Below, one piece after another: positions 131 to 24,582 of a DNA stretch of 64,000 nt. Each line of letters opens with the position of its first letter. The first letter of the stretch is position 1. The notes below the pieces were generated by a model. That model was not told the DNA's origin and ran no database searches. It saw nothing but the letters and a program-made list of their open reading frames with translations. The position numbers and the translations under genes were made by a program. The DNA is from Aridibaculum aurantiacum (GTDB lineage: Bacteria; Bacteroidota; Bacteroidia; Chitinophagales; Chitinophagaceae), in assembly GCF_017355875.1 (NCBI RefSeq), contig NZ_JAFEWC010000001.1, positions 1,488,001-1,552,000 on the forward strand. The letters are read 5' to 3'.

Positions 131-1255
131 ATGACAACAGATGATATATTGAAGGCGCTGAGCAACGTGCAGGAACCTGATCTTGGTAAAGACCTTGTGA
201 CACTAAATATGGTGAAGGATATAGTGATAGAAGGGAATTATGTGTCGTTTACCGTGGTGCTAACCACACCAGCATGCCCGCTAAAAGACATGATAAAAAA
301 TGCATGTATCAATGCAGTGAAACTACTGGTAAATAAAGAGGCAACCGTACAGGTAAACTTTACCAGCAATACAACTACAAAGCGAAAAGAAGGTGAAGCT
401 GTATTGCCAAAGGTGCGCAACATCATTGCGGTGGTGAGCGGTAAAGGTGGTGTAGGTAAAAGCACTGTAGCAGCTAATCTTGCTTTGGCACTAAGCCACG
501 GTGGCGCCAAGGTAGGATTGATGGATGCTGATATTTATGGGCCGAGTGTTCCTATCATGTTTGGTGTGCGTGGCGAACGTCCTATGATGAAAGAGGTTGA
601 TGGTAAAGGCATGATTGTTCCTTTGGAGCGATATGGTATAAAGTTGCTGAGCATCGGACTATTGGTTGATGAGAAGAACGCTGTAGTATGGCGTGGTCCA
701 ATGGCTAGTAGCGCTATACGCCAGTTTGTTACCGATGTGTTGTGGGATGAGCTGGATTACCTTGTAATAGACATGCCACCGGGTACAGGTGATATACATC
801 TTACGCTGGTACAAACAGTGCCTGTAACGGGCGTGGTGGTTGTAACAACTCCTCAGGATGTAGCGCTGGCCGACGCTAAAAAAGGTATTGCTATGTTTGG
901 CCAGGCACAATTGAAAGTGCCTATCATTGGCATCATTGAAAATATGAGCTACTTCACGCCAGCTGAGTTGCCGGAGAACCGCTACTACATATTTGGTAAA
1001 GAAGGCGGAAAGAGACTGGCTGAAGAATATGATATCCCTTTCCTTGGGCAGATACCATTGGTGCAATCCATACGTGAAGGTGGCGACCAGGGCGTTCCTA
1101 TTATGATGGGAGACGATGCGATAACTAAAAAAGCATTTGAAGAATTTGCCGCAGCCGCAGCTCGTAGCATTAGTATGCGCAATGCCAACATGAGTGCAAC
1201 AGAAGTAGCCGAAGTAGTGGAGGAAGTAGGAATAGCAAGTAAAATAGGCGAATAA
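131..1255 (+). CDS. mrp: Mrp/ApbC-family Fe-S cluster carrier P-loop ATPase
   Basis: Cytosolic MinD-like ATPase of the Mrp/NBP35 family, thought to carry and deliver iron-sulfur clusters. Residues 1-80 form the MIP18 (DUF59) domain with the conserved Cys of TTPACP (about C49). The Walker A loop GKGGVGKST lies at 104-112 and DMPPGTGD follows in the middle of the protein. The 374-residue length is normal. I place the start at the ATG at 131; the GTG just before it (128) adds only one residue. The CxxC found near residue 270 of many Mrp proteins is missing: that region reads ENMSYFTPAELPENRYYIFG. A TAACTTTG box at 89-96 could be its -7 element. Monocistronic, closed by a terminator at 1275. Confidence 0.95.
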   Translation: MTTDDILKALSNVQEPDLGKDLVTLNMVKDIVIEGNYVSFTVVLTTPACPLKDMIKNACINAVKLLVNKEATVQVNFTSNTTTKRKEGEAVLPKVRNIIAVVSGKGGVGKSTVAANLALALSHGGAKVGLMDADIYGPSVPIMFGVRGERPMMKEVDGKGMIVPLERYGIKLLSIGLLVDEKNAVVWRGPMASSAIRQFVTDVLWDELDYLVIDMPPGTGDIHLTLVQTVPVTGVVVVTTPQDVALADAKKGIAMFGQAQLKVPIIGIIENMSYFTPAELPENRYYIFGKEGGKRLAEEYDIPFLGQIPLVQSIREGGDQGVPIMMGDDAITKKAFEEFAAAAARSISMRNANMSATEVAEVVEEVGIASKIGE

Positions 1256-1274
1256 AATTGTTCTTATAAACTAG

Positions 1275-1300
1275 AAGGTGGACATTGTCCACCTTTTTTT
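1275..1300 (+). terminator. Intrinsic terminator after mrp
   Basis: Stem AAGGTGGA, loop CATTG, stem TCCACCTT, then five T residues, 20 bp after the mrp stop codon. Confidence 0.8.
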
Positions 1301-1321
1301 GTTGCCTCTTCTTTTTACAAA

Positions 1322-1573
1322 TCAACTATCAAAACAATTGTAGGTTTCATTCCTTTCTATCGTGCCTATCAATTCAGAAGTAAACTGGTAGGGAGAATTT
1401 TCAGTGGCATCATTCTCAATTTCCCAGCTGCCTATAGCATCTTTTTTTATCCTACAATTCCTTATTCCACCTAAGTAGTTATAAGTAACCAGGTAGTACG
1501 AATCGTCATTGCCTGATATGCGCAGGAAAGAGCAGAATATACCCTTTACGTATTTGTAAAATGACCTTTTCAT
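1322..1573 (-). CDS. Small hypothetical protein, 83 aa
   Basis: Not recognised. The 83-residue product begins MKRSFYKYVKGIFCSF and has no signal peptide or clear membrane span. It is rich in aromatic and charged residues, and its middle (YYLVTYNYLGGIRNC) looks like beta strands. It carries three Cys and lacks a known motif. It is the only open frame of size between the mrp terminator and the next gene, and it starts with ATG, which supports a real gene. It could be a small cytosolic or regulatory protein; the function cannot be assigned from sequence. Confidence 0.5.
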   Translation of the reverse strand: MKRSFYKYVKGIFCSFLRISGNDDSYYLVTYNYLGGIRNCRIKKDAIGSWEIENDATENSPYQFTSELIGTIERNETYNCFDS

Positions 1574-1946
1574 AACTTTTGTTGAGGGAATGAATTAATA
1601 AAACAAAAGTAAATATATCATCTGCCGGCAAGCGTGACAGGCATCAATTACCCAAAATCATTCAGCTGATTTTTTACATATATAGGCCTTCCCAAAATCA
1701 TCTTTTTTTGATATGGCTTATAGACAATAGCTGATGAAAAGCAGTAGTGGCGCGGGTTTCAGCAGGTGGGTGTAAAAATGCTAAACCCGTAGGAGCGTTG
1801 CTAAGCAGGAAATGAACCATCCAAAAGAACAGGAATTGCGAGAGGGATTGGTAGATACAGCTTTATATAAAAAAGAAAAGCCGGCATGTTTCCACTGCCA
1901 GCTTTACCTATATAGCGTCATGAATTAATGCACCAGGGCGATGCAA
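1574..1946. other. Non-coding spacer, about 370 bp
   Basis: No credible gene. It holds two copies of CCCAAAATCAT (near 1651 and 1694), each followed by a T-rich run, and the minus-strand terminator at 1866-1904. A 38-codon plus-strand frame from 1812 runs through that terminator and is probably chance. Confidence 0.5.
1866..1904 (-). terminator. Intrinsic terminator of the SWIB gene
   Basis: On the minus strand a 9-bp stem (AAGCTGGCA with TGCCGGCTT, one G-U pair) is followed by TTTTCTTTTTT, about 40 bp beyond the stop at 1947. Confidence 0.75.
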
Positions 1947-2393
1947 TTATTTCTGAACGTTGTCATTTACAATCTTAGCCAGGTCGAACATAGAGATCTG
2001 CTTTTTGCCAAACAATCCTTTGGTCTTGTCGTCAGCATTGATCATACGCTTGTTCTTCTGATCTTGTAATCCATTCTTTTTAATGTATTCCCATATTTTT
2101 TTGATGATCTCTGTTCTTGGCAATGGTTTGCTACCAATAACATCAGCAAGTGGTTGGCTTGGTTGAAGCGGTGCCATGAAAGCTGGATTGGCTTTTCTTG
2201 CTGGTTTTTTTGCTGCGCCTTTTGTAGCTGTTTTAGTAGCTGCTTTCTTAGCAGGAGCGGCAGCTTTGGTAGCTGCTTTTTTTGCAGGGGCGGCAGCTTT
2301 TGCGGCTGCTTTTTTAGGGGCTGGTGTTGCAGTTTTCGTTGCGGCCTTTTTTGGTGCTGCTTTCGTCGCTGCTTTTTTGGCTGCTTTTGCCAT
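1947..2393 (-). CDS. SWIB/MDM2-domain protein with Lys/Ala-rich histone-like N-terminal tail
   Basis: 148 residues. Positions 1 to about 70 are almost only Lys, Ala, Thr and Pro, in AAPAKKAATK-type repeats resembling a histone H1 tail. Positions 72-148 form a SWIB domain (PLADVIGSKPLPRTEIIKKIWEYIKKNGLQ, then a basic stretch and the closing FDLAKIVNDNV). The basic tail suggests DNA binding and a nucleoid-associated role; that is inference. SWIB proteins are known from chlamydiae and are common in Bacteroidota, where function is poorly defined. The tail is encoded by GCTGCTTTTTT-like repeats, which produces two open Ala/Cys-rich antisense frames that are artefacts. A terminator follows at 1866-1904. 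Confidence 0.9.
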   Translation of the reverse strand: MAKAAKKAATKAAPKKAATKTATPAPKKAAAKAAAPAKKAATKAAAPAKKAATKTATKGAAKKPARKANPAFMAPLQPSQPLADVIGSKPLPRTEIIKKIWEYIKKNGLQDQKNKRMINADDKTKGLFGKKQISMFDLAKIVNDNVQK

Positions 2394-2755
2394 ACTTTTT
2401 AAAATTTAATAGTTAATAAATAAACATGCACATCCTTCTATTTTACTTCCGAACATGGATGCTTACAAAGCATTAAGGTACGTAACCAATGCATATGTAA
2501 TGTAGTAGAAGTGCATATAAAAAATAATACCGCAGTACTGGCTGCTGAATTAAAGATATAAAACACCTAAAACACTTTTTGCCTAAGGAAAATTTTCATG
2601 TGCAACATGTGCAAAACATATGGATAACTGCCATAACTGCTCGTTTTACCAATAGAAAATCATTTGAAATGGTGTAGCGCGCAGTACAAGGGCAGGTTTA
2701 TTATGATTTCTATCATTGTACTAAAAGTAGAAGACCAACACCTTTACTTTCCTTA
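2394..2755. other. Divergent intergenic region
   Basis: About 360 AT-rich bases between the divergent SWIB and epimerase genes. It must hold promoters for both. I see no complete -33/-7 pair, no RNA gene and no repeat. Confidence 0.4.
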
Positions 2756-3796
2756 ATGAAGAGGATGTTTCCCATACATCGACCGCGCAACCTGCTAATA
2801 GTTCTTGTAGTTTTTCTATTAAGCATCGGCATTGCCATTGTTTTTACCAATAAACAGGGAGATGTTTATGAGCAATATGTAAGGCAGGTGCTGTATGCTG
2901 CCAAAGGTGATGCAGTGCCTGATCACGCACCTGAATATATAGATGAACAGGGCGTGCCTTATGTGATGTACAAAGGTGAAAACGGCATTATACCTGGCAA
3001 ACAATACAACCCAACCATCATAGGTAATTATGCTTTGCAATACCTGCAACAGTTGCAAGTTGGCGACACTTCCGTTGCTGCTTTCTTCAAAGCATGTGTT
3101 GACAGGCTAATTAAATCGTATACCTGTAAAGACAACTTTGCTTTATATGTTTTTGATTGGCAACAGCCATGGTATAAGTCGGTAGGAGTGCCCTATACTT
3201 CAGGAATGACATCAGGAATAGCTATCCAGGTGTTTACCGGCGCATACAAAATGTATGGTGATACATCTTACCTGCAGCACGCAAGGAAACTGCTTGGTGG
3301 TTTTTATTTACCTATACAGAACGGAGGATTTACTTATAAAACAGAAGAAGGCTGGTGGTTTGAGGAGCTGGCTGATACAGCCATGCATACTCCATATATT
3401 CTTGACGGGCATATCTATGCATTGTTGGGCGTTTACCAGTTTGCAACTGAGGCAAAAGATGACTCTGCAATGTTTGTATTCAATAAAGGCGTACAGGCGC
3501 TGAAGCATGACATTGCTTTATATGATGTAGGAGATGGAAGCGTACGATACGATAGGTACGGAAAACTTGCTGATAAGAAGTATCACCGTATACTGACAGC
3601 CCAAATGAAAGAACTTGCTATCATAACTAAGGATGTTGTGTTTGAACACTACCACCATAAATGGTCTCAGCCTTTGCAAAAGCCTTATGTACTACGGGTT
3701 TTAGGCGAAAGGAATGTATCTGGAATACTACTCCTGGTGATCGTATCCTTTGTTGGTTTCATTTCTTTCATGGCTGTGATATATTTTGTAAAATGA
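2756..3796 (+). CDS. Membrane-anchored D-glucuronyl C5-epimerase-like protein
   Basis: 346 residues matching the C-terminal catalytic domain of glucuronyl C5-epimerases, which invert C5 of glucuronic acid in polymers such as heparosan. Visible hallmarks are SGMTSGIAIQVFTGAY (mid-protein), a WWFEELADTAMHTPYILDGH stretch, YDVGDGSVRYDRYG, and KYHRILTAQMKELA, which lines up with the eukaryotic YDTGSGTIYDLRH and YHTTHINQL motifs. A hydrophobic helix at 12-30 and another at about 323-343 suggest anchoring at both ends with the enzyme domain outside the cytoplasm. No glycosyltransferase or uronic-acid polymer gene lies beside it, so the substrate is unknown. A bacterial enzyme of this family with activity is known from Bermanella; function here is by homology. 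Confidence 0.8.
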   Translation: MKRMFPIHRPRNLLIVLVVFLLSIGIAIVFTNKQGDVYEQYVRQVLYAAKGDAVPDHAPEYIDEQGVPYVMYKGENGIIPGKQYNPTIIGNYALQYLQQLQVGDTSVAAFFKACVDRLIKSYTCKDNFALYVFDWQQPWYKSVGVPYTSGMTSGIAIQVFTGAYKMYGDTSYLQHARKLLGGFYLPIQNGGFTYKTEEGWWFEELADTAMHTPYILDGHIYALLGVYQFATEAKDDSAMFVFNKGVQALKHDIALYDVGDGSVRYDRYGKLADKKYHRILTAQMKELAIITKDVVFEHYHHKWSQPLQKPYVLRVLGERNVSGILLLVIVSFVGFISFMAVIYFVK

Positions 3797-3849: not shown

Positions 3850-4806
3850 ATGAAAAAATTACTCCTGCCGCTGTTGTGTGCAATCATCACTTTTCCTGTG
3901 TTTGCGCAGCAAGTTCAATATCCTTATCCTATCCATCATCATAATGTACAGGTGCAAGATTCTATTTATCGCATGGCTTATATGGATGTGCCAAGTACAG
4001 CTGCCAATGGAGAAGTAATCCTGTTGTTGCATGGTAAGAATTTTAATGGCTACTATTGGAAAGATGTGATAGCAGGTTTGGTAAATGCAGGTTATAGGGT
4101 AGTGGTGCCAGACCAAATCGGCTGGGGCAGGTCAGACAAGCCGGTAGTGCAATACAGTTTTTCTATGTTGGCTGATAACACCAGGCGTTTACTGGATTCT
4201 CTGGGTGTTAAACAAGTGAATGTAGTAGGTCATTCCATGGGTGGGATGCTGGCTATCAGGTTTGCTATCATGTTTCCCACAATGGTAAAAAAACTGGTGC
4301 TCGAAAACCCGATAGGATTGGAAGACTATAGCCTGTTTGTACCTTATCAACCATTGCACAAGTTGGTGGAGAACGAACGCAAGGCTACGTACGAATCCAT
4401 AAAGAAGTACCAGCAGACCTATTATCCTGTTTGGAAGCCGGAGTATGAGCAATATGCTAAAGCCCAGGCGGATGCATATGAGCATGGTGATAAAGCACAG
4501 AATGCGGTGGTGAATGCACTTACTTACCAGATGATATATGACCAGCCGGTGGTGCATCATTTTAAATATGTAAAGGCGCCAACGCTGCTGTTACTTGGGC
4601 AGGAGGATAGGACGGTCGTGGGTAATAACCTATTGACAGAAGCGCAGAAGAAACAATATGGACATTATCCTTCATTAGGTAAAAAAGCAAAGGCAGCATT
4701 CACAAATGCACGCCTGGTAGAACTACAGGGAGTTAGCCATATACCGCATATACAAACGTTGCCATTGTTTATGAAACACCTGTTGCAGTTTTTGAAGCAG
4801 AAGTGA
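3850..4806 (+). CDS. Secreted alpha/beta-hydrolase
   Basis: 318-residue alpha/beta-hydrolase with a signal peptide (MKKLLLPLLCAIITFPVFAQ, cleavage near 20), so periplasmic or surface exposed. The oxyanion motif LLLHGKNFNGYYW is at 58-70 and the nucleophile elbow GHSMGG puts the catalytic Ser at 129. Candidate Asp and His are D253 (GQEDRT) and H297 (GVSHIPH). The cap (about 155-235) is rich in Tyr and Lys. It resembles haloperoxidase/epoxide-hydrolase-type members; the substrate cannot be read. It follows the epimerase gene by 53 bp and could be cotranscribed with it. Confidence 0.85.
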   Translation: MKKLLLPLLCAIITFPVFAQQVQYPYPIHHHNVQVQDSIYRMAYMDVPSTAANGEVILLLHGKNFNGYYWKDVIAGLVNAGYRVVVPDQIGWGRSDKPVVQYSFSMLADNTRRLLDSLGVKQVNVVGHSMGGMLAIRFAIMFPTMVKKLVLENPIGLEDYSLFVPYQPLHKLVENERKATYESIKKYQQTYYPVWKPEYEQYAKAQADAYEHGDKAQNAVVNALTYQMIYDQPVVHHFKYVKAPTLLLLGQEDRTVVGNNLLTEAQKKQYGHYPSLGKKAKAAFTNARLVELQGVSHIPHIQTLPLFMKHLLQFLKQK

Positions 4807-4932
4807 TGCTATAAGGAAGTAGCAACCAATATCAGTAGGATCTACTACTGGTAAGGGTTTCAGACATAACAGCTACTACATTTCATTTTTACTTTTTACC
4901 TTCTTTTCGTTACTTGCTATAAATAACAAAGA

Positions 4933-5931
4933 ATGCAGGTGAGAATTCTTTTGGTGGTAATGATGCTTACTGCAACCATAGCAAAGGCGCAAACAACAGG
5001 TATCGTATATTTCAATTTTAATAGTACCTCTCTTACTGGTGAAGCACGAGCAGAGTTAAATAAATTGGTAGCTGGTAATAAGCTGCAGTCGCTTGGCATC
5101 TTCGGTCATACCGACCAGGTAGGCACCGATGAATACAATGAATGGCTGTCGCTACAGCGTGCAAGGGCAGTACGGGATTATCTTGAAAGCAGGGGCGTGA
5201 ATGCCGGAAGAATAAGCGTAGTGATGGGTTGTGGTGCAAGGCGATTGATCAGCGATGGCAAAGATGATCTCTCGATGCAGCTTAACCGCAGGGTTGTTTT
5301 GATGAACAATTATAAGCCTACAGATATTGATAAAGAAATTGCAGCCAGGCAAGCTACCATAACTGAGCGTCCGAATATGAATGCTACTTCAAGCACAGCA
5401 GAAGCTGCAGTACCTGCACCAACAGCAAACAAAGCGCAACCTACCATACCACAGCAACCCATAGCAAAAGGAACAGAGCCGGTAAAGAGAGAAGAGCCTG
5501 TAGTAAAACAACAACGCAGTGAAAGATTAGTAGAGGATATACAGGATAAAGCAACAAAGGCGGGTGAGCATATTGTGTTGAAGAATATCAATTTTCACCC
5601 AGGCAGAAATGTGTTTTTAGAAAATGCCTATCCTGCGCTGCAAGACCTGGCTGAGGCAATGCAAAAGATCCCTACACTGGAAATAGAGATACAGGGCCAT
5701 GTATGTTGTACTGAAGATGAAACGGATGCATTGGATATAGTAACGGGAATACATAATCTTTCTACCAGCAGGGCCAAAGCTGTATATGATTACCTGTTAC
5801 AAAAAGGCATAGCTCAAAGCCGGGTCAGCTTCAAAGGGCTGGCAAGGCAATACCCACTGGTGAAGGTGGAGCAAAATGAAGATGACAGGATCATGAACAG
5901 GCGGGTAGAGATAAAGATCCTCCGCAAGTAG
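4933..5931 (+). CDS. Protein with two OmpA C-terminal-like domains
   Basis: 332 residues with a signal peptide ending near AKAQ (20). Residues about 25-130 form one OmpA/MotB peptidoglycan-binding-like domain (YFNFNSTSLTGEARAELNKLV, GHTDQVGTDEYNEWLSLQRARAV, LNRRVVL). An Ala/Pro/Gln-rich linker spans about 131-205. Residues about 212-332 form a second OmpA domain (NINFHPGRNVFLENAYPALQ, IEIQGHVCCTEDETDAL, STSRAKAVYDYLLQKGI, MNRRVEIKIL). The second copy carries an insertion with adjacent Cys residues in the loop after GH. There is no beta-barrel, so this is a soluble periplasmic protein that probably clings to murein. It likely tethers envelope structures; the exact role is unknown. Confidence 0.85.
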   Translation: MQVRILLVVMMLTATIAKAQTTGIVYFNFNSTSLTGEARAELNKLVAGNKLQSLGIFGHTDQVGTDEYNEWLSLQRARAVRDYLESRGVNAGRISVVMGCGARRLISDGKDDLSMQLNRRVVLMNNYKPTDIDKEIAARQATITERPNMNATSSTAEAAVPAPTANKAQPTIPQQPIAKGTEPVKREEPVVKQQRSERLVEDIQDKATKAGEHIVLKNINFHPGRNVFLENAYPALQDLAEAMQKIPTLEIEIQGHVCCTEDETDALDIVTGIHNLSTSRAKAVYDYLLQKGIAQSRVSFKGLARQYPLVKVEQNEDDRIMNRRVEIKILRK

Positions 5932-7150: not shown

Positions 7151-8818
7151 CTAATACTTTACAAGCTTCTTTACCTGCTTTTGTGTGCTGCTGATGTATT
7201 GAATAAAATATATTCCCGCAGGCATTGACGAAGACGTAGTAAAACTTTCGGTCATCACCTGGTTGATAGTTCCTTCTATAGATTTTGTTTGAACTATTCT
7301 TCCTGCTGCATCTACCAGGCGCAATGTTATTTTACCATTCTCAGGAGGTTTGATGTAGATAACAAGGTTATCACGAAAAGGATTAGGAGCCACCAGCCAC
7401 CAATCCTTATCAAAATTCAGAAGCCCGGAAGCTTCCTTTTCCAGCATCTCATATGCTTTTCTAAAGTTAGGAATGCCATAGCCATACCGGTCATCAGGAT
7501 TGTTGTACCTGTCGGAACTGCGGTACACCGCGTCCAGTATTTTCATGTTGTTGAACATAGGAAATGCCTGCCACAAGCATGCTACCAGTCCAGCCGCATT
7601 AGGATTAGCATACGAGGTGCCGTTGCCTGTCACCGGCTGATTTCCTAAACCTGCAATGACCGTATTCCAACCAACTGATACAATATTTGGTTTTACTTTG
7701 CCAGGGTAGCCATAGCTGCTAAAGCCAGCAATATTGCCCAATGTGTCAATGGCACCAACAGCACATACACTGTCTGCATCAGCAGGAAAGCCCATATACT
7801 TCCAAGCCCTGTTGCCCTCGTTGCCGGCGCTGTTCATTACTATCATTCCTTTTTTTGCGGCCATAGTTGCCCCGCGGCTAACCATTGTAGCATTCCGGTA
7901 AAAATCAGCATACGTATGATCAAAAGCAGGATTATCAAAATCGTAATATCCAAGCGAAGAGGAGATCATGTCGGCACCGGCACTATCAGCAAATTCAGCT
8001 CCGGCTACCCAATTGTGCTCTTCTATAGGTAGTTCATAAAATACATTCTCGGTGCGGATAAGCCAGTAGCTTGCTTTAGGTGCAGTGCCTACCATACGTC
8101 CCGGCCAGTTAGCTGCCATAATGCTCAGGCAATACATACCATGCGTATCATCCTCGTTTACGCTGTTATCAAAAGCTACAAAATCCTTTTCTCCCAGCAC
8201 CTGTCCATTCAGCCTGATGCTGTCGAAAGCAGTTACACTTTTATAACGGTAGAAGCCGGCATCAAGTACTGCTATATGCATGTTGCTCCCGGTGAATCCT
8301 TTGTTGTGCAGGTATTCACCTTCGTGTATATGAATTTGGTTGTAGCTATTGCCATAGTCTAAAGCATTGGCTGCGGTTCGTGCAGCTGTATTCCTGTTGC
8401 GTTGCCTGATATTACTTACTTCTGTCTCTATTTTTCCAGATGGCTCTGCTGCATTACGAAAACCTACACCCTGCGATGACACGACAAAAGGTAGTTTTGA
8501 AATTTTTTGTAAAGCTGCCTGGTCAGTTGTTTGAACCAGCACCTGGTTCAGCCATTTTGAAGTGCTGAGAATGGTGACGTTTCCAGAAAGGCGAATACTA
8601 TCAAGGTATCGCTGCGTAAGAGGAAGGTCAAAGCTATCAATGGCTATGTTGTAGCGGTTGCGACGTTCAATGGCCCTGGCTGAAAGAAAAGCATTGGGAT
8701 TGGCTAATGAAAAGGTGTTGCTGCCCTTGTCGCGTAATTGGATGATGTGTTTAGGATATTGTGCATTCAGCTCTACTAACAAGAAGACACAAATAACAAC
8801 AGCTACTATTCCCTTCAT
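7151..8818 (-). CDS. Secreted subtilisin-like (S8) serine protease with T9SS C-terminal domain
   Basis: 555 residues with signal peptide 1-19. An inhibitor-like propeptide extends to about 150. The S8 catalytic domain shows D186 (HIAVLDAGFY), H226 (EDDTHGMYC), the oxyanion Asn N333 (MNSAGNEGN) and S402 (GNGTSYANPNAAG). The last 80 residues (WWLVAPNPFRDNLVIYI to KQVKKLVKY) are a typical Por/type IX secretion sorting domain, so the enzyme is exported across the outer membrane and is probably anchored or released. It probably degrades extracellular protein. The order of Asp, His and Ser and the spacing are normal for subtilases. Confidence 0.93.
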   Translation of the reverse strand: MKGIVAVVICVFLLVELNAQYPKHIIQLRDKGSNTFSLANPNAFLSARAIERRNRYNIAIDSFDLPLTQRYLDSIRLSGNVTILSTSKWLNQVLVQTTDQAALQKISKLPFVVSSQGVGFRNAAEPSGKIETEVSNIRQRNRNTAARTAANALDYGNSYNQIHIHEGEYLHNKGFTGSNMHIAVLDAGFYRYKSVTAFDSIRLNGQVLGEKDFVAFDNSVNEDDTHGMYCLSIMAANWPGRMVGTAPKASYWLIRTENVFYELPIEEHNWVAGAEFADSAGADMISSSLGYYDFDNPAFDHTYADFYRNATMVSRGATMAAKKGMIVMNSAGNEGNRAWKYMGFPADADSVCAVGAIDTLGNIAGFSSYGYPGKVKPNIVSVGWNTVIAGLGNQPVTGNGTSYANPNAAGLVACLWQAFPMFNNMKILDAVYRSSDRYNNPDDRYGYGIPNFRKAYEMLEKEASGLLNFDKDWWLVAPNPFRDNLVIYIKPPENGKITLRLVDAAGRIVQTKSIEGTINQVMTESFTTSSSMPAGIYFIQYISSTQKQVKKLVKY

Positions 8819-8874
8819 AAGTTTGTAATGATCTTATAAAGTTACGTGGGAAAGGCAGATATGATTGGCAAGAA

Positions 8875-9627
8875 TTACCGGTGGCTGATAAGTCTTAGCC
8901 TGATGCCAAAGCTATTATCCTCGTAATGACCATTAGGATTAGGCTGCCATGTCCAAAAAAGAAATTCTTTGTAGATGAGGCCGATGCCTTTTGCATAAAC
9001 TTCTTTTCCAAAAAGGCGTTGTTTGAAATGGTTAGGATCGAATGGTCCCGCCGGAGAAACCTCGTCGTTTTGTGCTACGGTTAGTGTACTATCGTAAGTC
9101 TTGTTCAAAACAGTGAAAGGCTCACCCAATTTTTCATATGTATAGTCCCAGCCATTCTTTTTATCCAAATATTTATAGTCACTGTTGTCGTGCGTATCTA
9201 TGAAAGCATGGCCATACCAGGAGTAGCCTTCTTTTATAGGTTTAGAAAGTTTTACATATCGAAGATTATTCTCTACATACTCCACCCAACGGTCAGTAAC
9301 GGTAGCATAAATAGTTCCACCGGTCCACCATGGTTTGGTGGCAGCGGTATCTCGAATTGACCTGTAAATGATATAAGAAGGACGTCCCTGGTTGTCGCTA
9401 AAAGTGCTTACTACCGAATCGCGTAGTTGATAAGATCTTTCCACCAGCGCTGCTCCAAAAGGCGCGAGAAGAATAGAGTCTATTCTATAGATCCACACGT
9501 TTCCTTGCTTTATGGGAAAATATTCTTCTAGTTGGGCGGCATCCAATTCTTCGGTTTCCTTTTTACACGAAGTGAAAACTGCCATTGTACCTAAAACCAC
9601 CAGCGCCGCTGCAAACACTTTTTTCAT
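8875..9627 (-). CDS. Hypothetical lipoprotein
   Basis: Not a recognised family. I place the start at the ATG at 9627 (MKKVFAAALVVLGTMAVFTSCKKE), because this gives a lipoprotein signal with the lipobox Cys at about 21; a longer frame reaches 9696. The mature part is rich in Tyr/Trp and beta-strand patterns, with EYFPIKQGNVWIYRIDSI near the start, a phrase common in Bacteroidota lipoproteins of unknown role. It is probably outer-membrane attached. It sits 56 bp upstream of the protease gene on the same strand and could form a unit with it. Confidence 0.75.
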   Translation of the reverse strand: MKKVFAAALVVLGTMAVFTSCKKETEELDAAQLEEYFPIKQGNVWIYRIDSILLAPFGAALVERSYQLRDSVVSTFSDNQGRPSYIIYRSIRDTAATKPWWTGGTIYATVTDRWVEYVENNLRYVKLSKPIKEGYSWYGHAFIDTHDNSDYKYLDKKNGWDYTYEKLGEPFTVLNKTYDSTLTVAQNDEVSPAGPFDPNHFKQRLFGKEVYAKGIGLIYKEFLFWTWQPNPNGHYEDNSFGIRLRLISHR

Positions 9628-9799: not shown

Positions 9800-11362
9800 T
9801 TATTGTAAAAATATCATCTGTGTTGCCGCCTGCCTGTCAGTAGTTATAGTTAATGCAACTACACCAGATAGTGGCATGGCAGCTTTTATTTGCAGCCTGT
9901 TTCTGCCGGGAGAGTAGCTGCGTACAGGAACTTCAGCCACTACTTTTCCATCTGCCGTAACAATTTTGAAAGAGAAAGAGACAGCACTGGAAGTCGTATT
10001 GGTGAAACTTATTTCTCCATTTTTAGTAATGGCAATATTGTTAAATGAATTTTCTTTTTCCCTGCGTGCTACCACTGTTTTTGAATAGTTTGCAGATTGG
10101 TCGGTATTCTTCCAGGCTAAGCGATAGTAGTTAATTGGAAATTCTGGTTTGTGCAACAGGCTGCCGGTTGTAGCAGTTGCCAGCTTTTGTAGCTGTGAAA
10201 ACTGTACTCCATCAGGACTTGCCTGTACTTCAAGTTGCTGTACCGGAGCATTAAATTTCCACGTAAGTTGGTGGCTGTTATTTTTATTAGCCACAGCAAA
10301 TGTGTGCAGTTCTGCAGGTAAAACATAAGACGCAACAAAATCTGAGGTGTTGAATGACCGCAGCTTCTGGTTTACGGTAAGGGTAAAAGGGCCTGATGTT
10401 CGTGTGAATTTTTCGTTGCTGATATAGCCATAGGTGCCATTTCTAAAGGTTATACCTTCTACCTGTCCCATGGTAAGCGCATCCGGCAGGTCGATCCTTC
10501 TTTTGTTGCCATTGAAGTAGTTGCCGCTGCTATAGTCGCTCAGTATGTGCATGTAATGTGCAGCTGTACCTGCATTCACATAACCGATCAATGTCACTAT
10601 TTCTTCACCTACGGCTTTGTCTGCCGCGGTTACCAGGTAGCCGGTATTAAGCGTTTCAAGAGGTAATGCTATGTATGTGCCGGGTAGCGTACTGCTAATA
10701 ACATAATGCGTGCTGGTGAGCGAAACCCAGTTCTTCGTAAACAGGTGGATCATGCCATTATCCACTATCATAGCCTCACAATCAAAAGGTGTAGCATTGG
10801 GTGCTGTTGCCACTGGTGGTTGCGGCTGGTCGCTGTAAATGAAATTGATGACCTGCACTTCAGAAGCAGGTATGGTGACAACAGGATTTATGTTATGCTC
10901 CGGAATTGCGCTCAGAGGAAACTTGTAGATTTTCAGATCGGTTCGTGCACCATTGGCATTGTTTCCAAAGTCGCCTATGTAGAAATGCGAACCATCAAAA
11001 GCTATGTCCTCCCAATCTACATTGGTTGCGCCAGCAATATTTACCGTTTGCAGGATGGCGTTGCTCAATGTGTCGATACGGTAAATGGCTGCTGCGCCAC
11101 CACCGTCATTAAAGGTCCACAAGTGACCTGCCGCCCACTGCAAGCCGCTGTTCTCTTCCAGCAAAGCACTGATTGGATCAACTTTTATAGGTGGCGTGTA
11201 CGATGTTTGGTTATAGGTACAACTGCCATCATTCACGGTAGCAGATGCGTTGTAATTATTAGCTAAAGGATCCCGGCAGCCGGGCGTTTGCGCATATCCT
11301 TTTGCAGGAAGAATAGAAGCCAGTAGAGCAATGGCTGCTACTTGGAAGAGGGACTTAAACAT
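9800..11362 (-). CDS. Secreted protein with GSC-motif and T9SS sorting domain
   Basis: 520 residues with a signal peptide ending near YAQ (25). The first mature segment, GCRDPLANNYNASATVNDGSCTY (27-49), is a Cys-bracketed motif seen repeatedly in secreted Bacteroidota proteins. Residues 60-340 have a repeating beta pattern (LWTFNDGGGAAAIYRIDTLSN, VDWEDIAFDGSHFYIGDFGNN) that resembles a beta-propeller of the phytase-like or SMP-30-like kind. About 430-520 is a sorting domain for type IX secretion. Enzymatic activity cannot be assigned. Confidence 0.75.
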   Translation of the reverse strand: MFKSLFQVAAIALLASILPAKGYAQTPGCRDPLANNYNASATVNDGSCTYNQTSYTPPIKVDPISALLEENSGLQWAAGHLWTFNDGGGAAAIYRIDTLSNAILQTVNIAGATNVDWEDIAFDGSHFYIGDFGNNANGARTDLKIYKFPLSAIPEHNINPVVTIPASEVQVINFIYSDQPQPPVATAPNATPFDCEAMIVDNGMIHLFTKNWVSLTSTHYVISSTLPGTYIALPLETLNTGYLVTAADKAVGEEIVTLIGYVNAGTAAHYMHILSDYSSGNYFNGNKRRIDLPDALTMGQVEGITFRNGTYGYISNEKFTRTSGPFTLTVNQKLRSFNTSDFVASYVLPAELHTFAVANKNNSHQLTWKFNAPVQQLEVQASPDGVQFSQLQKLATATTGSLLHKPEFPINYYRLAWKNTDQSANYSKTVVARREKENSFNNIAITKNGEISFTNTTSSAVSFSFKIVTADGKVVAEVPVRSYSPGRNRLQIKAAMPLSGVVALTITTDRQAATQMIFLQ

Positions 11363-21250: not shown

Positions 21251-22234
21251 ATGATTGTCACTGACATTGTTAACAATATTTTCTCTGTTACTGCTCAAAG
21301 CTTCGAGGCTGTGGCGTTACAGGTTTTTCAATTCCAGTACAGCAACAACCAGGTTTATAAACAATGGGTGGATGCTTTAGGTGTTCATCCAAAGCAGGTT
21401 ACACAGCTCAAGCAGGTGCCATTTCTGCCGGTAAGCTTTTTCAAAACTCATCAGGTGGTAGCGGGGCAGTTTGAGCCGGAGGCAATATTTGAAAGCAGTG
21501 GAACTACTACAACCATTAACAGTAAGCACTACGTAAAAGATATAGAACTGTATAAAAGGAGTTTCCTTGAAGGCTTTCGCATGTTTTATGGTGACGTGAA
21601 GGATTGGTGTATCATTGGACTGTTACCCTCTTATTTAGAAAGGCAAGGTTCATCGCTGGTAGTGATGGTGGATGAGCTGGTGAAGCAGTCAGGTCATCCG
21701 CGATCCGGGTTTTATTTATACGATTACCCGCAATTGAAAGAAACACTAACACAACTTGAAAGTGCTGGAAAGCGCACTATGGTCATAGGTGTCACCTTTG
21801 CATTGCTTGATCTTGCTGAGCAATTTCCTATGAAGCTGCAGCATACTATAGTTATGGAAACGGGAGGTATGAAGGGTAGGCGGGAAGAGTTGATACGGCC
21901 ACAGGTACATGAAAAACTGCAGGAAGGATTAGGAGTTGATAAAGTACATTCTGAATATGGGATGACCGAGTTGTTGTCGCAGGCTTACTCTAAAGGCAAC
22001 GGTATCTTCAAGTCGGTACCATGGATGAAGTTGCTGTTGCGTGACGAAGACGATCCTTTGGCAATAAAAGGAACAGGCAGGGGTGTCGTAAATGTAATTG
22101 ACCTGGCAAACATCTATAGCTGCAGTTTTATTGCTACCGATGATGCAGGTATCATTTATGATGATGGGAGTTTTGAAATACATGGAAGGACCGACACCAG
22201 TGACATCAGGGGTTGTAGTTTGATGGTGGTGTAG
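21251..22234 (+). CDS. LuxE-family acyl-protein synthetase-like adenylating enzyme
   Basis: 327 residues of the LuxE/PaaK-like ANL group. LuxE activates a fatty acid with ATP, takes the acyl group on a Cys near its C-terminus, and hands it to LuxC. Visible features are FESSGTTTTINSKHYVKD (about 76-93; the Ser/Thr/Gly-rich ATP loop), HSEYGMTELLSQAYSKG (about 235-251), and a late GRTDTSDIRGCSLMVV. C322, five residues before the end, is in the position of the acyl-accepting Cys. There is no luxA, luxB or luxD nearby. A LuxC-like gene lies at 56539. Confidence 0.85.
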   Translation: MIVTDIVNNIFSVTAQSFEAVALQVFQFQYSNNQVYKQWVDALGVHPKQVTQLKQVPFLPVSFFKTHQVVAGQFEPEAIFESSGTTTTINSKHYVKDIELYKRSFLEGFRMFYGDVKDWCIIGLLPSYLERQGSSLVVMVDELVKQSGHPRSGFYLYDYPQLKETLTQLESAGKRTMVIGVTFALLDLAEQFPMKLQHTIVMETGGMKGRREELIRPQVHEKLQEGLGVDKVHSEYGMTELLSQAYSKGNGIFKSVPWMKLLLRDEDDPLAIKGTGRGVVNVIDLANIYSCSFIATDDAGIIYDDGSFEIHGRTDTSDIRGCSLMVV

Positions 22235-22278
22235 TGGGTGAGGGTGATAAACACTGCTAACAATTAGAAATAATATTT

Positions 22279-22797
22279 ATTAGATTTATCCTACTTATCA
22301 TTTTTTCATTATTTACCGCAAGCGCTTATAGTCAAACGGCATCTCTTCCGGCATGGTTCACAGAGACATTTAAAAGCAAAAAGCTTGACCAGGAATTCCA
22401 GGTAATGCCTTTTATAAAACCTGACTTTTTATCTGCAGATTTCAATGGAGATAATAAAGAGGATGTAGCTGTTTTAGTAGTTCATAAATCCACAAGTAGA
22501 AAAGGGATCCTGATCATTCACAATTCTACTGCGGAGCATTTTGTAATGGGTGCAGGAAAAGATTTCGGCAACGGCGGCAAAGACTTTAGCTGGCTGGACA
22601 AGTGGGCGCTGTACAAAAAGAAGTCAGCCGATGAAACAATATTTGATAAAGTAACTGGCGATATCAAAGGCAGTAGAACCATTAAACTGTTGCGCCCCGG
22701 CATTTTGATAGAGGATTATGAAGATGGCGCAGCAATCGCTGGTGGTATCATTTATTGGAATGGAAACAAGTATAAATGGATCCACCAGGGTGAATAG
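22279..22797 (+). CDS. Small secreted protein with apparent non-ATG start (ATT or ATA)
   Basis: The first ATG in frame is at 22405, but the frame is open back to the TAA at 22258. The missing part encodes a clear signal peptide (I)RFILLIIFSLFTASAYSQ followed by TASLPAWFTETF. Only ATA (22270, 22273) and ATT (22279) codons are available as starts; ATT gives a 172-residue protein. The mature domain (FLSADFNGDNKEDVAVLVVH) resembles FG-GAP/VCBS-type calcium loops (DFNGDNKED) and ends with WNGNKYKWIHQGE. Otherwise unrecognised. Either the start is truly rare or a start codon was lost by mutation. Confidence 0.65.
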   Translation: MRFILLIIFSLFTASAYSQTASLPAWFTETFKSKKLDQEFQVMPFIKPDFLSADFNGDNKEDVAVLVVHKSTSRKGILIIHNSTAEHFVMGAGKDFGNGGKDFSWLDKWALYKKKSADETIFDKVTGDIKGSRTIKLLRPGILIEDYEDGAAIAGGIIYWNGNKYKWIHQGE

Positions 22798-22803
22798 AAT
22801 TCT

Positions 22804-23421
22804 ATGAAATTGCCCTTCAAAAAACTTCCATTACCAGCTCTAGGTTATCTTATGATCATTAGAAAAGCAACACCAGCTGACGCAGAGGCTATAGCTACTC
22901 ACCTGTTACTGGCAATGGAGGATATTATTTTCCGTCTCATAGGTGAAGCAGACAGCGCTAAGGCTAAAAACTTTCTGCTGCATTTTACCCAACAAGAAAA
23001 CAACCAGTACTCATACGAGAACTGTTGGGTTGGGCAAATAGACAACGATGTTATAGCAACCGTCAATATTTATAATGGAGCAGAACTACATGCATTGCGA
23101 CAACCTGTTCTCAATTATTTAAAGCTTCATTACAACAGGCAGCTACAGCCTGAAGACGAAACTGGTCCAGGAGAATTTTATATAGACACTTTAGGTGTAA
23201 GTCCACATATGCAGGGAAGAGGTGTGGGTGCCAAAATGCTGCAGTTGGTTATTGATGAATTTGTAACCACCCGCAAAAAAACAGTTGGTTTGTTGGTAGA
23301 GCCTGGTAATGTAAGAGCAAAGAAATTATTTGAAAGATTGGGCTTTAAACCTGTAGGCATAAAAACATTGTTGGGTAAGCAATTGGATCACCTGCAGATA
23401 GTAGTAAACCGTTCCCTGTGA
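22804..23421 (+). CDS. GNAT-family N-acetyltransferase
   Basis: 205 residues from the ATG at 22804, or 189 from 22852 (MIIRKATPADAEAIATHLL), which matches the usual GNAT beginning and is my preferred start. Motif A is visible as FYIDTLGVSPHMQGRGVGAKMLQLVIDEF, with Q-G-R-G-V-G as the acetyl-CoA pyrophosphate loop, followed by VGLLVEPGNVRAKKLFERLGFKPVG (motif B). The acceptor is unknown. It follows the small secreted-protein gene by 6 bp and a terminator-like hairpin facing the other way lies beyond its stop. Confidence 0.88.
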   Translation: MKLPFKKLPLPALGYLMIIRKATPADAEAIATHLLLAMEDIIFRLIGEADSAKAKNFLLHFTQQENNQYSYENCWVGQIDNDVIATVNIYNGAELHALRQPVLNYLKLHYNRQLQPEDETGPGEFYIDTLGVSPHMQGRGVGAKMLQLVIDEFVTTRKKTVGLLVEPGNVRAKKLFERLGFKPVGIKTLLGKQLDHLQIVVNRSL

Positions 23422-23625: not shown

Positions 23626-24582
23626 TTATTCTACCGTTTGTCGTGGCTTCCAACCAGTAAGTAGAACACCTGCTATCACTAGTAATGTACCGGCTATCTG
23701 TGCTGCAAACATGGGTTCATCTAAAATGAAATGCGCCTGCAGAATAGTTGATACTGGGCCGATGCTACTAATGATGGCCACGTTATTCGATCCTATCCGC
23801 TTCATGCCATTTGCTATCATAAATGAAGGGACCACAGTAGCCACCACTGCCAGCAAAATACCATAAAACCAGATATCGGTGCCACCTGCAAGGGTAGTGT
23901 GCGTACCAGCTAAAAGATAATGTGTGAACACCCCAACCGTTGCAGCCAGCATAGCATAGGCAGTAAACTTGGTAGATCCAACAGATGGAATGATCCTGCC
24001 GCTACCAACCAGGTAAATCGAAAATGTAACGGCACACATAAATACCATAAAACTGCCGTACAGGAAATTCGGATTGCTATTGTCTACCTGCAGTTCACCT
24101 ATATAAGCAATTGCAATTCCCGTATACGTAAGCAGCAATGCCCACTTTTGATTGCGTGCTATTCTTTGCTTAAACAGGTAAGCATTAATAAGTACTGCGA
24201 AAGTGGGATATAGGAATAAGATCAATCTTTCAAGGCCTGCAGAAATATATTGTAGCCCTACAAAATCGAACAGGCTGCTGATATAGTAACCACACAAACC
24301 TATCAGCGAAACCGTCAGCCATTGCCTGTTGGTCATCCTTACATTGCCCGACTGGCTGCTGATAAAAAATGCTGCTGCCAGGAAGAACGGCAAAGAAAAG
24401 ATCATGCGTAGCGCCAACAGGCTGATAGCATCTGCATGCGTGGCTGCAAAAGCCAGTTTTACAATGATGGCTTTGGTAGAAAAGAGGATGGAGCCAATAA
24501 AGGTGATGATAAAACCTGCTAATGATAGTTGTTGAACGCGCTGTTTCTCCATTTCCTGCCGGTGCTCAATTGTGTTTGGCAA
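23626..24582 (-). CDS. EamA/DMT-family transporter
   Basis: 318 residues with about ten transmembrane helices arranged as two EamA repeats. The first repeat ends near FLYPTFAVLINAYLF; the second has GSNNVAIISSIGPVSTILQAHFILDEP, the helix pair that typifies the drug/metabolite transporter superfamily. It likely exports an amino acid, nucleobase or similar small metabolite; the substrate cannot be told. The start at 24582 (MPNTIEH) or 24549 (MEKQRVQQ) is uncertain. Isolated gene. Confidence 0.88.
   Translation of the reverse strand: MPNTIEHRQEMEKQRVQQLSLAGFIITFIGSILFSTKAIIVKLAFAATHADAISLLALRMIFSLPFFLAAAFFISSQSGNVRMTNRQWLTVSLIGLCGYYISSLFDFVGLQYISAGLERLILFLYPTFAVLINAYLFKQRIARNQKWALLLTYTGIAIAYIGELQVDNSNPNFLYGSFMVFMCAVTFSIYLVGSGRIIPSVGSTKFTAYAMLAATVGVFTHYLLAGTHTTLAGGTDIWFYGILLAVVATVVPSFMIANGMKRIGSNNVAIISSIGPVSTILQAHFILDEPMFAAQIAGTLLVIAGVLLTGWKPRQTVE

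Follow-up and report, generated by a model that had tools for sequence, protein, structure and literature searches.

We examined an open frame on the forward strand of a 64,000-nucleotide stretch of the Aridibaculum aurantiacum genome, referred to here as the window. The frame lies between a gene for a LuxE-like acyl-protein synthetase (21251-22234) and a gene for a GNAT acetyltransferase (22804-23421), both on the same strand. Reading the sequence and its translation directly, we found that a TAA at 22258-22260 is followed by CAA TTA GAA ATA ATA TTT ATT AGA TTT ATC and onward through 178 sense codons to a TAG stop at 22795-22797. An ORF call that accepted ATG, GTG and TTG as starts placed none of these codons in frame upstream of the ATG at 22405-22407. 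The first-pass annotation had described just such a frame, and both the sequence and the ORF call bear it out, with ATA at 22270, ATA at 22273 and ATT at 22279 standing where it had placed the only other candidate starts. Comparison with relatives delimits a gene for a small exported protein at 22279-22797 (172 codons counted from the ATT, coordinates including the TAG). Its first part (22279-22335) encodes what we judged, by visual inspection of the translation, to be a signal peptide with a basic residue, a hydrophobic core and an ASA-like cleavage region. The product aligned with intact relatives at 44-62% identity over its full length, including the N-terminal hydrophobic stretch, and because the relatives match over the whole length the frame is more than a chance ORF.

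The protein contains a DFNGDNKED loop (22438-22464) that is FG-GAP-like and probably metal-binding, its D, F, G, D and D being invariant in the alignment. A structure predicted from an alignment of seven copies (A2; mean pLDDT 85.2, pTM 0.78) showed strands preceded by a helix. The protein resembles an FG-GAP or integrin-type beta-propeller blade (PF01839) in having a DxNxD-type loop at the matching place and in that its best-listed fold matches include integrin heads. It differs in scoring 14.2 bits against Pfam FG-GAP, below the gathering cut-off of 22.1, and in giving no Foldseek match against the PDB at E <= 0.001; the best rows listed, which include integrin and other propeller chains, all lie outside that threshold. 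An NCBIfam search with the window protein gave no match. Our best guess is an exported protein that carries a metal-binding loop.

Relatives are few. The gene is present once in its own genome (4.86 Mb, 5 contigs, scored 100% complete), and matches were found in 2 of 10 genomes of the genus, its own included, in 11 of 394 genomes of the family sample and, by profile search, in 7 of 396 genomes of the order sample, weak matches being included in the latter two counts. A contig scan with the single protein as query returned no relative; an alignment query recovered relatives. The named scan with the alignment gave eight loci, from Flavisolibacter ginsengisoli (L049, 62% identity), a Flavisolibacter MAG (L050), Limnovirga soli (L051), Paraflavitalea (L052), a Segetibacter MAG (L053), a Bacteroidota MAG (L054), Mucilaginibacter phenanthrenivorans (L055) and a Mucilaginibacter MAG (L056). 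We regard the window gene as a member of a small, sparse Bacteroidota family of exported proteins.

The start codon was compared across eight intact copies other than that of the window (L049 to L055 and L005), each place being counted once (L003=L049=L057, L004=L051=L059, L006=L052, L002=L053, L005=L060 and L001=L058). The aligned codon is ATG in seven of them, among which is L005 (genome G122), and TTG in the eighth (L055). For L005, L052 and L053 the ATG was assigned from the alignment, because the frame there is open far upstream. Weak or partial matches (L008 and L062 in G094, L009 in G111, L010 in G047, L011 in G066, L063 in G511) and broken copies (L007/L012, L013 with L064/L065, L014, L056, L061) were left out of the count; the broken copy L012 likewise opens with ATG. 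When six leaders were aligned as DNA, the window's TTTATT fell below the TTTATG of five relatives, its leader (22264-22278, TTAG...TTT) aligned with theirs, and a TTA about 14 bases before the start was common to the aligned leaders. No relative that we found has ATT at this position (22279-22281 in the window), so that the codon is private to the window. The aligned ATG and TTG codons together with the leader alignment make it most likely that the ancestral start was an ATG at 22279, and by the alignment and the start table an ancestral canonical start appears to have been replaced by a non-start codon. The first-pass annotation had considered a point mutation in a former ATG gene and proposed comparing this codon in relatives; the ATG or TTG found there is the outcome that points to mutation and supports that suggestion.

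The same alignments bear on where translation could begin. The other possible starts in the frame are ATA 22270, ATA 22273 and the ATG at 22405, which would give a protein with a longer signal or with none. We consider a start at any of them very unlikely, since the relatives begin exactly at 22279 in both protein and DNA alignments. A start at 22405 would in addition cost the signal and conserved residues, leaving a product of 130 residues. The expected loss of the signal from such a start, as first annotated, holds, and the further loss of half a domain was overstated: 42 of 172 residues would go, namely the signal together with a helix and a short strand in the predicted model. The codon could also be a sequence or assembly error, the strain itself having ATG at 22279 or, less simply, an extra base within 22261-22266 that would open the frame to a GTG at 22244. 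One base would be enough and the remainder of the gene looks normal; the assembly, however, is in 5 contigs with a completeness score of 100%, and the stretch contains no long single-base run. We hold an error to be unlikely.

In the reading that we favour, a single G-to-T substitution at 22281 turned an ATG start into ATT, and initiation should drop to a small fraction of its earlier level, because the codon is ATT and neither a Shine-Dalgarno-like motif nor an A at -3 is present. With initiation so reduced the gene would most likely be silenced or nearly so, through a recent start-loss mutation that has left the rest of the frame intact. We found no Shine-Dalgarno-like tetramer between -20 and -5 of the window start, and only one of the other copies has such a tetramer. 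Bacteroidetes are described as lacking Shine-Dalgarno sequences, with an A at -3 favouring initiation (PMC6847099). The missing tetramer in itself says little, because Bacteroidota do not rely on such pairing and most of the other copies lack tetramers as well. Predicted RNA structure around the start is weak, at no more than the strength seen in shuffled sequences.

The alternative is that AUU at 22279 works as a weak start, the ATG having been replaced and a low level of exported protein kept. In keeping with a genuine AUU start, the frame has no ATG, GTG or TTG at the conserved N-terminus or upstream of it, the local RNA structure is weak, and one relative uses TTG, evidence that the family can tolerate a weaker start. 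There are also bacterial precedents: AUU and AUA starts in Staphylococcus aureus, cvfC1 being an AUU example, give about 10% of the AUG level in poor medium and have extended Shine-Dalgarno motifs (PMC13009471). The starts of S. aureus cvfC1, ccpN and infC resemble the window gene in that a frame which is normal in other respects has AUU or AUA at its proper N-terminus. They differ in being conserved and in having the extended motif, whereas the ATT of the window is private to it, without conservation of AUU among relatives, and no supporting motif has been gained. The infC gene of the genus likewise argues against this reading, as its conserved N-terminus begins with ATG (ATG GCA) in 10 of 10 genomes. 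We accordingly rejected lineage-wide use of AUU starts, and also autoregulation of the infC type, since the gene is not infC and the lineage's infC starts with ATG. The initial proposal of a non-canonical start as for infC is thus left without comparative support, and we regard a working AUU start as possible, at about one chance in several.

The condition of the gene and of its relatives bears on both readings. The window frame is otherwise undamaged, with 171 codons free of stops. Of the 28 columns conserved throughout the other copies it departs at 2, where the other copies depart at 0-5 of 26-31, so that its private changes are not raised. Both features are compatible with a weak start still in use. 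Differences by codon position over 171 codons were 54/36/99 with L049 and 54/39/85 with L050; the third position dominates, and this excess mostly reflects older history. Five broken copies were found outside the window: a frameshifted copy (L012/L007) and a fragment (L014) in G259, the second copy of G079 with three stops (L013), L056 with an in-frame TAG and L061 with a frame change. Sequence errors in these relatives are possible, because L056 comes from a MAG and others may as well.

The surroundings suggest that the gene is an addition to this locus. The luxE-like gene has a match in 10 of 10 genus genomes, and each of the ten loci retrieved, that of the window among them, has a divergent lipoprotein gene next to luxE. 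When the ten luxE loci were compared with about 1.5 kb of flank each, the GNAT gene was matched in the window's locus only. Of the nine other genus genomes, G008 alone has a copy of the family, on a different contig from its luxE. In one locus (L018) luxE is followed directly by a transporter with 71% identity to window 23629-24582. By these comparisons of the neighbours, the gene, the GNAT gene and a tRNA-Leu are an addition between the luxE-like and transporter genes. After luxE in some genomes of the genus (L017 and L018) we noticed by eye what seem to be long imperfect palindromes, possibly dispersed repeat elements.

Several relatives have features of integron gene cassettes. The relative in F. 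ginsengisoli (L049) adjoins attC-like sites some 137 bp long, and at L050 an attC-like site ends 10 bases before the ATG. In a test of eight loci against simple shuffles, cassette ends were complementary at L049 (p ~0.002) and L054 (0.01) and doubtfully so at L051 (0.09); the window (0.53), L050 (0.45), L055 (0.28) and L052 and L053 (~0.99) were at shuffle level. These sites and complementary ends indicate that the family is at least partly cassette-borne. In the window copy both are lacking: an attC-like scan of the window found no site near 22258, and a looser threshold gave three weak hits, the same as in shuffles and none close to the gene. An active cassette at this place was therefore rejected. 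The octamer CTGCTAAC at 22254-22261, which is like an attC arm of L033, was held to be a chance likeness. We think it rather doubtful that this exported protein, perhaps of cassette origin, really begins at AUU with no aid from a Shine-Dalgarno motif, the weak start then restraining an acquired gene.

Integron-like arrays were observed elsewhere in the same genome. On contig C3 at 887000-905000 (L066), near-identical attC-like sites, near 10800, 11545, 12060, 13816, 14659 and 17608 of that locus, lie between small genes, and by eye some of these have 5' ends complementary to their own 3' ends. The array adjoins an Xer-like integrase (8558-9493) that falls below the TIGR02249 cut-off, the matched stretches 2-180 and 242-314 skipping the intervening part. 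The same sites form another cluster on C1 at 1103-1116 kb (L070). F. ginsengisoli shows the same arrangement, with attC-like sites at 573-3356 and an integrase at 4028-5221 (L068, contig C34 of G112); the recombinase beside its sites has 397 residues and is Xer/IntI-like, and L033 9195-10699 belongs to this arrangement. Two cassette genes in L066 (10973 and 13405) apparently start with TTG, each giving a natural lipoprotein or membrane-protein N-terminus, and weak starts may be common in cassettes. For Bacteroidetes, the IntegronFinder 2.0 paper gives only In0 as the earlier record, followed by a single complete integron, from Salinibacter (PMC9024848). Our literature search found no title on such cassette arrays in Chitinophagaceae.

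Taken together, we rank silencing or near-silencing first, weak use of AUU second and sequence error third. The canonical codons of the relatives at the aligned position, the intact frame and the broken copies are direct observations. Start loss is favoured by the restriction of ATT to the window, the leader alignment, the broken copies, the sparse presence, the extra position of the gene and the absence of a Shine-Dalgarno-like tetramer. Against it we count the lack of other damage, the private changes, which are not raised, and the TTG of L055. The gene is probably dispensable, because the family is sparse, partly cassette-borne and often broken, and start loss in a dispensable gene is our first choice because broken copies are common. 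As in known cases of start-codon loss leading to a pseudogene or hypomorph, the window codon is one base away from the start of its relatives and the gene is sparse and often broken elsewhere; by contrast, the window frame is otherwise fully intact. We infer that the change ran from ATG to ATT, that it is recent and that expression has been lost, and with moderate confidence we conclude that an ATG-to-ATT start loss in a sparse, often-broken family of exported proteins has most likely silenced or nearly silenced this gene.

If the start has been lost, the case is one of ordinary gene decay and a warning for gene finders, which would annotate the exported protein in truncated form from the ATG at 22405. 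Should AUU be in use, the gene would have an uncommon start for a phylum without Shine-Dalgarno pairing, and near-cognate initiation could be tested there. The side result may matter more, namely that genomes of the Segetibacter genus and of Flavisolibacter carry integron-like arrays beside an Xer-like integrase without the IntI-specific part.
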